Shown here: positions 19,431 to 30,466 of the stretch, one piece after another | Layout: every line of letters begins with the position of its first letter | Numbering within the stretch: position 1 is the stretch's first letter | Assembly (NCBI GenBank): GCA_030830285.1 | Contig: JAURNF010000012.1 | Coordinates: 1 to 35,976 of the forward strand | DNA from: Candidatus Kapaibacterium sp. | GTDB taxonomy: Bacteria > Bacteroidota > Ignavibacteria > Kapaibacteriales > Kapaibacteriaceae | Reading direction: 5' to 3' | Length of the DNA: 35,976 nt | Position numbers and translations under genes: made by a program | The notes under the pieces: model-generated | Told to the model about the DNA's origin: nothing | What the model saw: only the letters and a program-made list of their open reading frames with translations | Database searches by the model: none

Positions 19431-19906
19431 AGACTCCATCACAAAGTCTTGTCGTGATGACAGAGCTTGTGCTCCCAAACGACACGAACTACCTCGGCAA
19501 TCTCCTGGGTGGACGTCTGATGCACTGGATCGACATCGCCGCTGCACTTAGCGCACAACGTCACTCAGGCAAGGTCTGCGTTACTGCATCCGTCGATGAA
19601 ATCAGCTTCAACGAGCCAATCAAGCTCGGACACGTCGTGCATATTCGCTCACTGCTCACACGTGCATTCAAGACATCGATGGAAGTGTATGTGGAAGTGT
19701 GGCGTGAAGATCCACTCAACGGCACACAAACACGCACGTCGGAAGCATTCCTTACGTTTGTGGCCATTGATCAATACGGCAAGCCGCTTCCTGCACCACC
19801 ACTGGAGCCGGAAACCGAAGACGAACGCCACCGCTACGACGATGCAGCAATGCGTCGCGAGAATCGCCTGAAGGCACGCGAGACGATGAAGGTTCGTCGG
19901 GGATGA
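19427..19906 (+). CDS. acyl-CoA thioesterase (hotdog fold)
   Basis: MTELVLPNDTNYLGNLLGGRLMHWIDIAAALSAQRHSGKVCVTASVDEISFNEPIKLGHVVHI; ATGA overlap with bamD. Confidence 0.93.
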   Translation: MKTPSQSLVVMTELVLPNDTNYLGNLLGGRLMHWIDIAAALSAQRHSGKVCVTASVDEISFNEPIKLGHVVHIRSLLTRAFKTSMEVYVEVWREDPLNGTQTRTSEAFLTFVAIDQYGKPLPAPPLEPETEDERHRYDDAAMRRENRLKARETMKVRRG

Positions 19907-21186
19907 TGCGCCTCGCCGCTGTGCTGTTGATGCTCGTCACATATGCGGCAACCGCAGCTGACGACGCACCACGCATTCGGATGATTCGCGCCTACGGCGG
20001 TACAAACGAGCGTCTCCCACCAATCGTAATGCTCAACGCGTCTGGCGATGCATCGCTGGGTAGCCCCTTTGCAACGATTGAGTTTGATGTTGCTTCGTTA
20101 GCAATCCCCAATGTCTATGCTCGACTCACACACTGTCGGGCCGATTGGACGCCGGATGAGAACGGGTTTCTGACTGATGTGACACTCCGCACGAGCTTGG
20201 TCGATTGGGCTCTAGCCCCAGAACGATCACGCTACTATCGCTATCGCGGATCGATGCAAATCCCGAACGCACAAACAACGTTGCGGTTCAGTGGTAATTG
20301 GTTGGTCACAGTGCACGACGCGCAAACAGATGCGAAGCTCGCCGAGACACGCATCTTCGTGGTCGATCAGCGCGCGTCAATGGCCTTGAACTTCATGACG
20401 GATTTCTACGAGCCCCGTAAGCGCGTGAGCTCGATTGCATATACGATCGAGGCGCTGCTGCGCGACCCAACCAATGCGCTGCTGTCGAACAACCTGCATA
20501 CGGTGACGTTCTATCGCAATCATCGCTGGGCAGAACCGATGTTGGTGTCGCAACAGGCCGATGCAACAATGATGTTGCGCACCGACGGACAGAACGCAGT
20601 GGTCGGCATGCTGCAAGCAGGCAAGGTGTTTCGTCTTGCACGCATCCCAGCTCAGAACGAATACCGCGTGTTGGACCTCACGGATCTGAGTCGCTACCCG
20701 TCAACGGGCGAGCCGGTGCGAATGCCGCTGAGCGACCTGCGTCGCAATGGCATGTTCCTGGAGCGAGCAGACGATGGCGCGATGATTACGCGCGGCCTCG
20801 CAACGCGTGATGATGAATACATCCCTGTCGAGATCCTCCTCGATCCGGCACCGGGCGGACCAAGCGAGGATGATGTTGTTGTGGTGGGTTCGTTCAATCA
20901 GTGGAAGCCGGACCGGTCGTGGTTGATGTACTACGACGAAGACATCCGCCTGTATCGTTGTCGCAACTGGATCCGACGTGGACGTCACAACTATCTGTAC
21001 GCGACTGGCCGCCTCGACGCGGACACGGAACAGATCACGGATATCTCGTACGAAGAATTCGAAGGCAACACGGCATCGGCATCGAACAGCTTTGTTGCAT
21101 TCGCTTACTACCGCGAACTCGACTATGGTGGCTATGATGGTATTGTAGCCGTGGCTGCATCGAACATGTACGCCGGCGGACGGTAA
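19903..21186 (+). CDS. DUF5103 / type IX secretion system plug-like protein
   Basis: Signal peptide; VVVVGSFNQWKPDRSWLMYYDEDIRLYRCRNWIRRGRHNYLYA...EEFEGNTASASNSFVAFAYYRELDYGGYDGIVAV, resembling the DUF5103 C-terminal region. Confidence 0.75.
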   Translation: MMRLAAVLLMLVTYAATAADDAPRIRMIRAYGGTNERLPPIVMLNASGDASLGSPFATIEFDVASLAIPNVYARLTHCRADWTPDENGFLTDVTLRTSLVDWALAPERSRYYRYRGSMQIPNAQTTLRFSGNWLVTVHDAQTDAKLAETRIFVVDQRASMALNFMTDFYEPRKRVSSIAYTIEALLRDPTNALLSNNLHTVTFYRNHRWAEPMLVSQQADATMMLRTDGQNAVVGMLQAGKVFRLARIPAQNEYRVLDLTDLSRYPSTGEPVRMPLSDLRRNGMFLERADDGAMITRGLATRDDEYIPVEILLDPAPGGPSEDDVVVVGSFNQWKPDRSWLMYYDEDIRLYRCRNWIRRGRHNYLYATGRLDADTEQITDISYEEFEGNTASASNSFVAFAYYRELDYGGYDGIVAVAASNMYAGGR

Positions 21187-23099: not shown

Positions 23100-24566
23100 A
23101 TGAGCAAAGACATTACCTCTCGCGCCGACGATTATTCACAATGGTACATCGACCTCGTTCGTAAGGCGGGGCTCGCAGATTATTCAGCTGTAAAAGGCTG
23201 CATGGTGATCAAACCCTATGGCTTCGCCATCTGGGAGAACATGCGCGATACACTCGATCGCATGTTCAAGGACACCGGCCATGTGAACGCCTACTTCCCG
23301 CTCTTCATTCCGAAGAGTTTCCTCAGCAAGGAAGCAGCACACGTCGAAGGCTTCGCAAAGGAATGCGCCGTCGTCACACACTACCGTCTGAAGAACGCCG
23401 AAGACGGTTCAGGCGTCGTGGTTGACCCAGACGCAAAGCTCGAAGAAGAACTCATCGTTCGTCCGACATCCGAAACGATCATCTGGAACACCTACCGCGA
23501 TTGGATCGATTCGTATCGCGACCTTCCCCTGCTGATCAATCAATGGGCAAACGTTGTGCGCTGGGAAATGCGCACACGCCTGTTCCTGCGCACAGCAGAA
23601 TTCCTCTGGCAGGAAGGTCACACCGCACACGCAACACGCGACGAGGCAATCGAAGAAACACGGAAGATGCTCGACGTGTACGCGACGTTCGCCGAAGAAT
23701 GGATGGCCATGCCAGTTGTGAAGGGCGTCAAGACAGCCAACGAGCGCTTCGCTGGCGCGGAAGACACCTACTGCATCGAAGCACTGATGCAGGATGGCAA
23801 GGCGCTGCAAGCTGGAACATCGCACTTCCTCGGACAGAACTTCGCTAAGGCATTTGATGTGCAGTTCAACACCAAGGACAACACACGCGAGTATGTGTGG
23901 GCCACGTCATGGGGCGTGTCAACACGCTTAATGGGTGCGCTCGTGATGGCACACTCTGATGACGATGGTCTGATGATTCCACCACGTCTTGCTCCAACGC
24001 AAGTGGTGATTGTTCCGATTCCAAAGCCAACACCTGAACTCCTCGAGCGCGCCAACGCAATCGCAGCCGATCTGCGCAGCAAGGGCGTGCGCGTAAAGGT
24101 CGACACCGACGATCAGAACCGTCCTGGCTACAAGTTTGCTGAATACGAGAAGCTCGGCATCCCAGTGCGACTCGGCCTAGGTGCACGCGATCTTGAAAAC
24201 GGCACCATCGAAGTTGCACGTCGCGACACAAAAGAGAAGTCAAGCGTCGAACTCACGTCACTCACATCACACGTGGTCGATCTGCTTGATGCGATTCAAG
24301 CCAACATGTTCGAACGTGCTCGCGCCTATCGCGATTCGCACATCACACCTGTCGACACCTGGGATGAATTTGTCCGCTTGCTTGACGAGAAAGGGGGCTT
24401 CCTCAGCGCCCATTGGGACGGCACTGGCGAAACAGAAGAGCTCATCAAGACAGAGACAAAGGCAACCATTCGCTGCATCCCGCTCAACAACCCTCAGGAA
24501 GCAGGCACGTGCATCAAGACCGGAAAGCCAAGCACTCAGCGCGTGCTGTTTGCACGAGCGTATTAA
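23100..24566 (+). CDS. proS: prolyl-tRNA synthetase (archaeal/eukaryotic-like, type 3)
   Basis: [38 protein letters not shown]...[24 protein letters not shown]...[12 protein letters not shown]...[12 protein letters not shown]. Confidence 0.96.
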
Positions 24567-24634
24567 GACGGTTGAGACGGTTGAGACAGATGTCTCACCG
24601 TCTCACCGTCTCAATAGTCTCAATAGTCTCAATC
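24567..24634. repeat. Tandem/inverted 8-9-nt repeat block forming a hairpin
   Basis: GACGGTTGA x2 (24567-24584), GACA(GA)TGTC centre, GTCTCACC x2 (24592-24607), GTCTCAATA x2 plus GTCTCAATC (24608-24634). Arm 24567-24588 pairs with 24591-24610 except two bulged T. Confidence 0.9.
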
Positions 24635-25504
24635 GCTGGCTGTGCCTCCATCCCTCCCTTACCATCGACAACGATCGTGTTGGCGGAGTTCGATGCGTCG
24701 CGTGGAGCGATTACATCTGTCGCTGAGATAACACCTCACGCTGGGTACAACAACCAGCCAGCGTTTTCGCTGGATGGATCGCACGTGTACTACGTTGATG
24801 ATGTCAACGGCGGCACGGACATCGTGCGATACGATCGTGCGTCGGGTGTGCGTACGCGGCTAACGAATACGTCGGAGGCGGAGTTCTCGCCTACGCCGAT
24901 GTCTGACCGACGGAGTTTGTCTGTCGTGCGCGTGGCGCGTCCAACGGCATCGGGAGAAGACTACACAGAGTCGCAGCAGCTGTGGCGGTACGACAGCACC
25001 GGACGTGCCATTGCGCCGATCATCGGCATGCGTCGCATCGGCTATCACTGCTGGATGAGCGATGCAATCGTTGCAGTGTTTGTTGTGGGCAATGAAGAGC
25101 GCGGCGAACCACACACACTCCGCGTGGTTGAACTCACATCACGTCAGTCGGTGACCGTCGCACGATCCATTGGCCGAACGATTCGAATGTCGCCACAACA
25201 ACGCCTCACGTACGTTGACAAATCTGACTCCACACGATGGGTCTTGATGTCGATCAAGGTTGGCGACGAACACGGCACGCCAATCCTTCCAATGCCGCGT
25301 GGGTCGGAAGACTTCGCATGGCTCGCAGATGGTCGTGTGCTAATCAGCACAGCCGACGGTCTCGTGCTCGCAACACAGACTGGCAGCGCGTGGGCATTCG
25401 CGCCCGTGTCGGGAGCACTTCCACTGCGCGGACGTATCGGACGCATTACGGTGAGTCCGGACGAACGCACGATTGCCATGGTGATCACACGTGAAACACG
25501 CTAG
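24590..25504 (+). CDS. lipoprotein with TolB/PD40-like beta-propeller repeats
   Basis: ATG 24590: MSHRLTVSIVSIVSIAGCAS lipobox; AGYNNQPAFSLDGSHVYYVDDVNGGTDIVRYD PD40-like repeat. ORF track start 24413 lies inside proS and is unlikely. Confidence 0.8.
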   Translation: MSHRLTVSIVSIVSIAGCASIPPLPSTTIVLAEFDASRGAITSVAEITPHAGYNNQPAFSLDGSHVYYVDDVNGGTDIVRYDRASGVRTRLTNTSEAEFSPTPMSDRRSLSVVRVARPTASGEDYTESQQLWRYDSTGRAIAPIIGMRRIGYHCWMSDAIVAVFVVGNEERGEPHTLRVVELTSRQSVTVARSIGRTIRMSPQQRLTYVDKSDSTRWVLMSIKVGDEHGTPILPMPRGSEDFAWLADGRVLISTADGLVLATQTGSAWAFAPVSGALPLRGRIGRITVSPDERTIAMVITRETR

Positions 25505-28878: not shown

Positions 28879-29850
28879 ATGTCGCTCATCGAAACCATCT
28901 ACAGCAAGTTCGGTCCGTTCGGACAGTGGCTTATCCGTCGACGTCGTGCTCGGTTGAATGCGCCTAAGCCTGAGACGTTTACGCAACATGTTGTAGCATG
29001 GATCAAGACGCTCGTCTGGGCCGTGTCTGTTGTGACCATCATCAACGGACTCGCCCTTGCATCGTTTACCGTGCCAACGGGATCGATGGAGCGCACGGTG
29101 ATGGCCGGCGACTTCCTCTTTGTCAACAAGTTCATCTACGGTCCATCAACACCGCAGATCATTCCGTTTCTCAATCTCCCCCTTCCGTTCTACAAGCTCC
29201 CGCCGCTGTCTGCTCCGAATCATGGCGACGTGATCGTCTTCATCTTTCCTGGCAACCGCGACGATGTGAAGGCAGATCACTTCGAGTACTACCTCAAGCG
29301 TTGCATCGCTGTTGCGGGAGACACGCTACAGATTCGCAGTGGACGCGTGTTTGTGAACGGCATCGAGCGTCCACTTCCGGAGCACGGACAGTTTGCGCCG
29401 TACAGCGCCGAAGAGCGTACGGCACGTCATGAATACGATCGGCCGGCTTCGTTCCCTCCTGGACGTCAGTTTACGCGCGATGATTACGGTCCGATCCGTA
29501 TTCCAAAGCAAGGCGACGTAATCCCACTCACACCTGAATCGCTCTACGAGTGGGCAACATTCATCCGTCGTGAAGGCCACACGGTCAATCTCGGCACCGG
29601 CACCATCGACGGACAGCCAGCGACATCGTACACCGTTGAGCGCGACTACGTGTTCGGCATGGGTGACAACCGCGACAACTCTGCCGACTCACGCTTCTGG
29701 GGCTTTATCCCAGAGAACGACGTCGTCGGCACACCAATGGTTGTGTATTGGTCATGGGAGCCCGACGATCTCCAAAGCGGCAAGCGCTTGTCGCTCTTCG
29801 AGCGCCTCGGAACCATTCGTTGGAGTCGCATCGGGACGATCATCAACTAA
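28879..29850 (+). CDS. lepB: signal peptidase I
   Basis: TM then FTVPTGSMERTVMAGDFLFVNKFIYG; YLKRCIAVAGDTL; FGMGDNRDNSADSRFWGF: Ser/Lys catalytic motifs, long insertion between boxes. Confidence 0.95.
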   Translation: MSLIETIYSKFGPFGQWLIRRRRARLNAPKPETFTQHVVAWIKTLVWAVSVVTIINGLALASFTVPTGSMERTVMAGDFLFVNKFIYGPSTPQIIPFLNLPLPFYKLPPLSAPNHGDVIVFIFPGNRDDVKADHFEYYLKRCIAVAGDTLQIRSGRVFVNGIERPLPEHGQFAPYSAEERTARHEYDRPASFPPGRQFTRDDYGPIRIPKQGDVIPLTPESLYEWATFIRREGHTVNLGTGTIDGQPATSYTVERDYVFGMGDNRDNSADSRFWGFIPENDVVGTPMVVYWSWEPDDLQSGKRLSLFERLGTIRWSRIGTIIN

Positions 29851-29851
29851 G

Positions 29852-30466
29852 ATGGATAGCCACCGGCTCTCGACTATCCGATGGCGCGATCTCGCCCTCA
29901 CGGCAGTCTTTGCTGCGTGTATTGCCGTTGCGCTCCGTGTGTTTGTGCTCAGCGCATATACAATCCCCTCGCACTCGATGGAGAACACCATTCTGCATGG
30001 TGACTACATCGTGATGAGCAAGATCACCTACCTCATGCGCGATGTGCGTCGTGGCGACGTGATCATCTTCTCGCTTCCGGATTCACTTCGCAAGGGTGAG
30101 TCGCTTCTCAATCCCGACGAGCTGTATATCAAGCGCGTCGTAGGAATGCCTGGCGACACGCTCGTGCTCACGCACGAGTCGATCACGATCAACGACGCGC
30201 TCCAACCAACACCGCCTGAGGCACGTCCGCCGTTCGACCCGCTTCTTAAGCCAAAGGAGCGAGCACGGACAATCATCGTGCCACCCGACCACTATTTTGT
30301 GATGGGCGACAATCGAAGCAACTCGTACGACTCACGTTCATGGGGGATGTTGCCGAGCGATCACATTGTTGGCTCGCCGCTGTTTGTGTACTGGTCATAC
30401 GGCGATACACCGAATAACCCTGCCGATCACATACGCTGGGATCGTCTCTTGCAGATCATCAAGTAA
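29852..30466 (+). CDS. second signal peptidase I
   Basis: MDSHRLSTIRWRDLALTAVFAACIAVALRVFVLSAYTIPSHSMENTILHGDYIVMSK; YIKRVVGMPGDTL; VMGDNRSNSYDSRSWG. Start reassigned to ATG 29852. Confidence 0.94.
   Translation: MDSHRLSTIRWRDLALTAVFAACIAVALRVFVLSAYTIPSHSMENTILHGDYIVMSKITYLMRDVRRGDVIIFSLPDSLRKGESLLNPDELYIKRVVGMPGDTLVLTHESITINDALQPTPPEARPPFDPLLKPKERARTIIVPPDHYFVMGDNRSNSYDSRSWGMLPSDHIVGSPLFVYWSYGDTPNNPADHIRWDRLLQIIK

Follow-up and report, generated by a model that had tools for sequence, protein, structure and literature searches.

Directly behind the stop codon of proS (TAA, 24564-24566) in a genome of Candidatus Kapaibacterium sp., an array of short repeats begins at 24567 and runs on into the reading frame of a predicted lipoprotein gene. 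A first-pass annotation had proposed that one and the same stretch of repeat DNA separates the two genes, folds into a hairpin around the start codon and encodes the core of the signal peptide. Our analysis of the window (the whole stretch of 35,976 nucleotides) and of related genomes supports the multiple role of the array and points to a gain of the repeat in this lineage.

Predicted hairpin and signal peptide at the junction

The array after the proS stop consists, in this order, of TTGAGACGG-type units, the ATG at 24590, two copies of GTCTCACC, two of GTCTCAATA and one of GTCTCAATC. The units are not uniform in length: those of the 5' arm and those from 24608 onwards have 9 nt, whereas those at 24592-24607 have 8 nt (Table 1). 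The two inverse arms, GACGGTTGAGACGGTTGAGACA and TGTCTCACCGTCTCACCGTC, were both found as the first-pass annotation had described them, and RNA folding rendered 7+8+5 = 20 stem pairs with two bulged U residues, in agreement with the 20 pairable positions and two bulges it had counted. The loop is AGAU, and the AUG does lie at the apex, its A and U being in the loop while its G closes the stem. The minimum free energy of the 100 nt at 24561-24660 is -39.7 kcal/mol, compared with -20.5 (sd 3.1) for shuffled sequences (z -6.1), and none of 200 shuffles was as stable. Five GTCTC motifs at 8-9 nt spacing are above chance according to both Markov shuffles and a reversed-pattern control. A search for known structured RNAs gave no Rfam match across the window.

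Table 1. Positions of the genes and repeat elements at the proS/lipoprotein junction, with the basis of each assignment.
Feature	Position	Strand	Basis
proS (prolyl-tRNA synthetase)	23100..24566	+	Pfam ProRS-C_1, tRNA-synt_2b, HGTP_anticodon; ORF
In-frame GTG within proS, possible ancestral start of the lipoprotein	24509..24511	+	start codon at equivalent place in relatives
5' hairpin arm (GACGGTTGAGACGGTTGAGACA), GAGAC units in TTGAGACGG-type 9-nt repeats	24567..24588	+	sequence; RNA fold
Predicted lipoprotein, PD40 / TolB-like propeller repeat	24590..25504	+	PF07676, E 3.8e-12
Probable start codon ATG, hairpin apex	24590..24592	+	ORF; RNA fold
3' hairpin arm (TGTCTCACCGTCTCACCGTC), GTCTCACC 8-nt units, coding from the ATG onward	24591..24610	+	sequence; RNA fold
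Signal-peptide hydrophobic core, GTCTCAATA, GTCTCAATA, GTCTCAATC = VSI-VSI-VSI	24608..24634	+	sequence; ORF
Lipobox I-A-G-C	24632..24643	+	direct reading; Cys aligns with lipobox Cys of orthologues

Translation from the ATG at 24590 reads MSHRLTVSIVSIVSIAGC-ASIPP, and the 9-mers do encode VSI-VSI-VSI ahead of the lipobox, as had been claimed. From a reading of the sequence, MSHR-LTVSIVSIVS-IAG-C has the parts of a lipoprotein signal peptide, namely a positive n-region, a hydrophobic core and a lipobox ending in Cys, and the product is most likely exported and lipid-modified. TolB-type NCBIfam matches to the protein are weak and below cut-off; a BBP2 porin gene lies downstream. The double unit within the VSI-coding repeat is unique in the genome, and GTCTCAATAGTCTCAATA was found in the genome at this locus only. 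Spacings of 9 nt, an excess of which might point to selection on the coding sequence, make up 3 of 5 in this array and 6 of 24 elsewhere, numbers too small to establish such an excess. The view that copy-number changes would preserve the frame holds for 24608-24634, where the steps are of 9 nt; from the ATG to 24607 the units are of 8 nt, and a change there could shift the frame.

The ATG at 24590 has no clear Shine-Dalgarno sequence and lies inside a strong hairpin, which counts against its use as the start and against the explanation that we favour below. In-frame alternatives are found upstream of it at -3 (TTG), -6 (TTG) and -27 codons (GTG).

Two further regions of the window may be mentioned here. 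From a reading of the translations, the adjacent tandem ORFs at 28879-29850 and ~29852-30466 are both signal peptidase I-like (lepB-like), and 19903-21186, just upstream of a ruvB-like gene, encodes a protein in which the plug domain of type 9 secretion systems (PF17116) was recognised.

The same junction in related genomes

Orthologues of the lipoprotein are present in 10 of the 11 genomes of the genus, that of the window included. The nearest are those of G007 (CAJAIA010000020, 'uncultured Ignavibacteria bacterium') and G004 (CAMCXP010000006), with 78% and 77% protein identity, respectively; a scan of genome contigs turned up just these two as near relatives. The gene tree joins both with our genome with full support, leaving G002, G003 and G010 unresolved. 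A single alignment of 14.8 kb at 79% identity between G007 and the window spans the junction, at which the window is longer by a net 51 nt, in frame, and G007 has no array. No array was found at this junction in G004, G010 or G015 either. The lipoprotein frame of G007, G004 and G015 extends back into proS, with a start about 55 nt before the proS stop, at the equivalent of position 24509 (GTG in G007 and G004, ATG in G015). From that start the signal peptide of G007 reads MHQDRQAKHTARVVRTSVLILSLVVTSC, and the near relatives are accordingly predicted to rely on an unrelated hydrophobic core for export of the orthologue. The first-pass annotation had named an unrelated signal peptide in orthologues as a finding that would count against its proposal. 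The array-free closest orthologues, with their different core, do speak against a translational switch as a conserved device; a lineage-specific one is left unaffected.

G002 and G003 carry a GTTAC-type array with inverted copies at the same junction. With a start located behind it, no more than about 7 residues would precede the Cys; the usable start would hence lie before the array (GTG in G002, TTG in G003), and the arrays of both species are apparently translated. Their junctions fold with -41.2 (z -1.7) and -36.8 (z -3.8), respectively. Because G007, G004, G010 and G015 have no array, at least two independent gains are the simplest reading of this distribution. The reading that the array was gained in the lineage of the window, and not lost in the ancestor of G007 and G004, rests on those four array-free genomes within a poorly resolved genus tree. 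Upstream of the lipoprotein orthologue of G009 (L031), four near-identical blocks stand just before the start codon and combine a CCCCGGGCCAAGGCCCGGGG palindrome with GTCTC/CGTCTCT-type units, a compound structure unlike the simple arrays found elsewhere.

A class of short tandem arrays in the genus

A search of the genome and its relatives for such arrays, which the first-pass annotation had proposed, turned up GTCTCA arrays on six other contigs and a genus-wide class of related elements. The pattern GTCTCAN{2,4}GTCTC has 30 matches in the genome and its reversed control 2. GTCTCA arrays were located at about seven places (contigs C3, C33, which holds the window, C58, C139, C144, C205 and C208), with single GTCTCA pairs on C52 and C234. 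Those outside the window appear intergenic, most of them adjoining a stop codon or a tRNA gene, and inverted halves are also seen in the C58 and C205 arrays. The arrays on C3 and C205 sit at the same places in G007, and that on C208 at the same place in G004, with differences in copies, units and arms; the C139 array is missing in G007. The arrays are retained at some places, evolve quickly, and come or go elsewhere. By inspection, the C3 (L003) and C205 (L021) arrays, both at positions shared with G007, directly adjoin tRNA genes.

For the genus, about 1.18 Mb of sampled contigs from the eleven genomes was surveyed, with additional pattern searches, an array being defined as at least 4 copies of one 5-mer at 7-9 nt spacing. 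This rendered 39 arrays, 33 of them intergenic and 14 with at least 2 inverted copies within 150 nt, whereas no array of at least 4 copies appeared in Markov shuffles (one per sampled sequence, in a slightly smaller sample). Compared with other gaps of at least 60 nt, arrays were commoner between convergent genes and rarer between divergent ones (convergent to divergent, 13:5 for arrays and 46:81 for other gaps; Fisher p 0.005). These figures are approximate, since the gene calls were simply longest ORFs and part of the contigs had been chosen for the lipoprotein gene or for known arrays. Counts in draft genomes are probably underestimates as well, because contigs of G005 and G009 start or end inside arrays (L155:14304-14420, L156:1-83, L224:1-244), which indicates that arrays probably break assemblies.

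The repeated unit varies by species. It is GTCTCANN here and in G007, and AGTGACG in G001 and G005, and AGTTAC-type units have 105, 447 and 403 matches in G001, G002 and G003, compared with 8, 14 and 14 in the reversed controls. Outside the taxonomic family, 50 of 296 relatives at phylum level have triple GTTAC at 7-8 nt spacing, the reversed control being also high in some other genomes, so that short tandem arrays are not peculiar to the genus. The array at the proS junction is a member of this genus-wide, mostly intergenic class of 7-9 nt tandem arrays, often with inverted halves. With shared-unit arrays above chance and a bias to intergenic positions and gene ends, the class belongs with the heptamer-type simple sequence repeats.

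Intergenic heptamer arrays are known from other bacteria. Direct repeats of TAACTGA have been described in Beggiatoaceae, Cyanobacteria and Bacteroidetes; in some Bacteroidetes one species carries an array that a close relative lacks at the same junction (MacGregor 2015, PMC4679880). Like these, the arrays of the genus repeat a short unit of around 7 nt in tandem, lie mostly between genes and often adjoin start or stop codons. TAACTGA is, however, one conserved unit repeated mostly directly just upstream of starts, whereas the genus arrays differ in unit from one species to the next and commonly have inverted halves, the units of our genome have 8-9 nt and the array at the proS junction is predicted to be translated. 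The AGTTACN/TAACTNG units of G001, G002, G003 and G012 differ from TAACTGA by one or two bases. The GGGAATC heptameric repeats of Xanthomonas and Nostoc, which avoid divergent gaps and coding DNA (PMC4692102), and other cyanobacterial heptanucleotide repeats resemble the genus arrays in lying between genes, near stop codons and partly inverted; those repeats are G-rich with quadruplex potential, unlike the genus arrays, one of which became coding. Repeats in the coding region of a leader peptide are likewise known, from the CTCTT repeats of Neisseria opa (PMC3960869), and the array studied here is also a tandem repeat within signal-peptide coding DNA. The likeness covers the position of the repeat only, opa having a frame-shifting pentamer of proven phase variability, while the present array, known from its sequence, has mixed 8- and 9-nt units and an inverted half that forms a hairpin. 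Finally, REP/BIME elements with their RAYT transposases are also intergenic hairpins scattered through a genome, and genes with Y1_Tnp domains are present in the genus (10 of 11 genomes), but the genus arrays have no fixed palindrome. Mobility of the RAYT/REP type found no support for these arrays, as neither GTCTC nor GTTAC arrays flank the four Y1_Tnp loci inspected, one of them in our genome. Templated repeat addition by a reverse transcriptase or a telomerase-like enzyme was not supported either, RVT_1 being found in 1 of 11 genus genomes, a different one from ours.

Origin of the junction array

We consider it probable (roughly 0.7) that a young, lineage-specific array was gained in frame at the proS/lipoprotein junction, took over the hydrophobic core and provided the ATG at 24590. 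As apparently still in the closest relatives, the lipoprotein gene would ancestrally have started within the 3'-terminal part of proS. A GAGAC/GTCTC array would then have formed in the stretch from the proS stop to the lipobox and lengthened it by the net 51 nt, possibly through slippage together with copying or conversion between arrays. This array would have put VSI-VSI-VSI in place of the old hydrophobic stretch, so that export of the product as a lipoprotein most likely continues, and it would have contributed a new ATG at the apex of the hairpin. Independent initiation at this ATG is probably restricted by the hairpin. Since the AUG is buried in it, and a ribosome stopping at 24566 would open its base, translation of the lipoprotein is probably tied to that of proS.

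A start at the possibly ancestral GTG 24509 would account for much of this history as well, in which case the whole array would be a translated N-terminal extension and the ATG at 24590 incidental. No stop interrupts the frame from proS across the array, the length of the insert is divisible by three, an equivalent start is available in G007, G004 and G015, and G002 and G003 seem to translate their own arrays. We nevertheless regard this as unlikely, because about 31 residues would precede the hydrophobic core, compared with a textbook short lipoprotein signal from the ATG. Synonymous divergence from G007 gives no clear sign of an overlapping coding constraint in the proS 3' end, amounting to 5/18 in the final 18 codons and 53/162 in the others. 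Quite unlikely, in our judgement, is that the hairpin serves as a proS transcription terminator or as a stabiliser of the mRNA end, its coding use being a side effect. The stability of the hairpin, the conserved position of a hairpin-type array at another locus (C205 and G007) and the convergent enrichment and divergent depletion of the class are all in its favour. The first-pass annotation had also thought of a terminator, but no U-tract or T-run follows the 3' arm, which makes the hairpin not a canonical terminator, and no terminator match was obtained at this site; termination here would moreover silence the next gene, whose start it overlaps, and four relatives have no array at the junction at all.

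Slippage could also make the locus phase variable in the manner of opa, altering the length of the core in 9-nt steps or the frame in 8-nt steps and so switching export or expression of a surface lipoprotein. The tandem units do lie within the signal-peptide coding region, and homologous arrays differ between species in copy number and arms. Divergence between species is not, however, equivalent to variation within a population, and only two or three identical units follow one another in a lineage-specific array of mixed 8- and 9-nt units, so that we hold this to be improbable. These alternatives and the gain of the array are not mutually exclusive.

Intergenic heptamer arrays and repeats in leader-peptide coding regions being already known, the new part is apparently the documented conversion of an array into a signal peptide, which from the sequences compared would have taken place at one gene twice. 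With near relatives lacking the insert, the junction provides a clean before-and-after case of repeat DNA that turned into a signal peptide and probably also gave rise to a start codon; in another lineage, a repeat of a different kind stands at this gene. Moreover, intergenic arrays are numerous in this uncultured genus and their units vary among its species, so that a comparison of the genomes offers a way to study how such a unit spreads. It is conceivable, though we think it improbable, that a species-specific unit of 7-9 nt is carried by some mechanism to new gene junctions in this genus and repeatedly creates new N-termini. If so, start codons and export signals would arise from arrays time and again in these bacteria, the hairpin tying translation at the gene start to the upstream gene.
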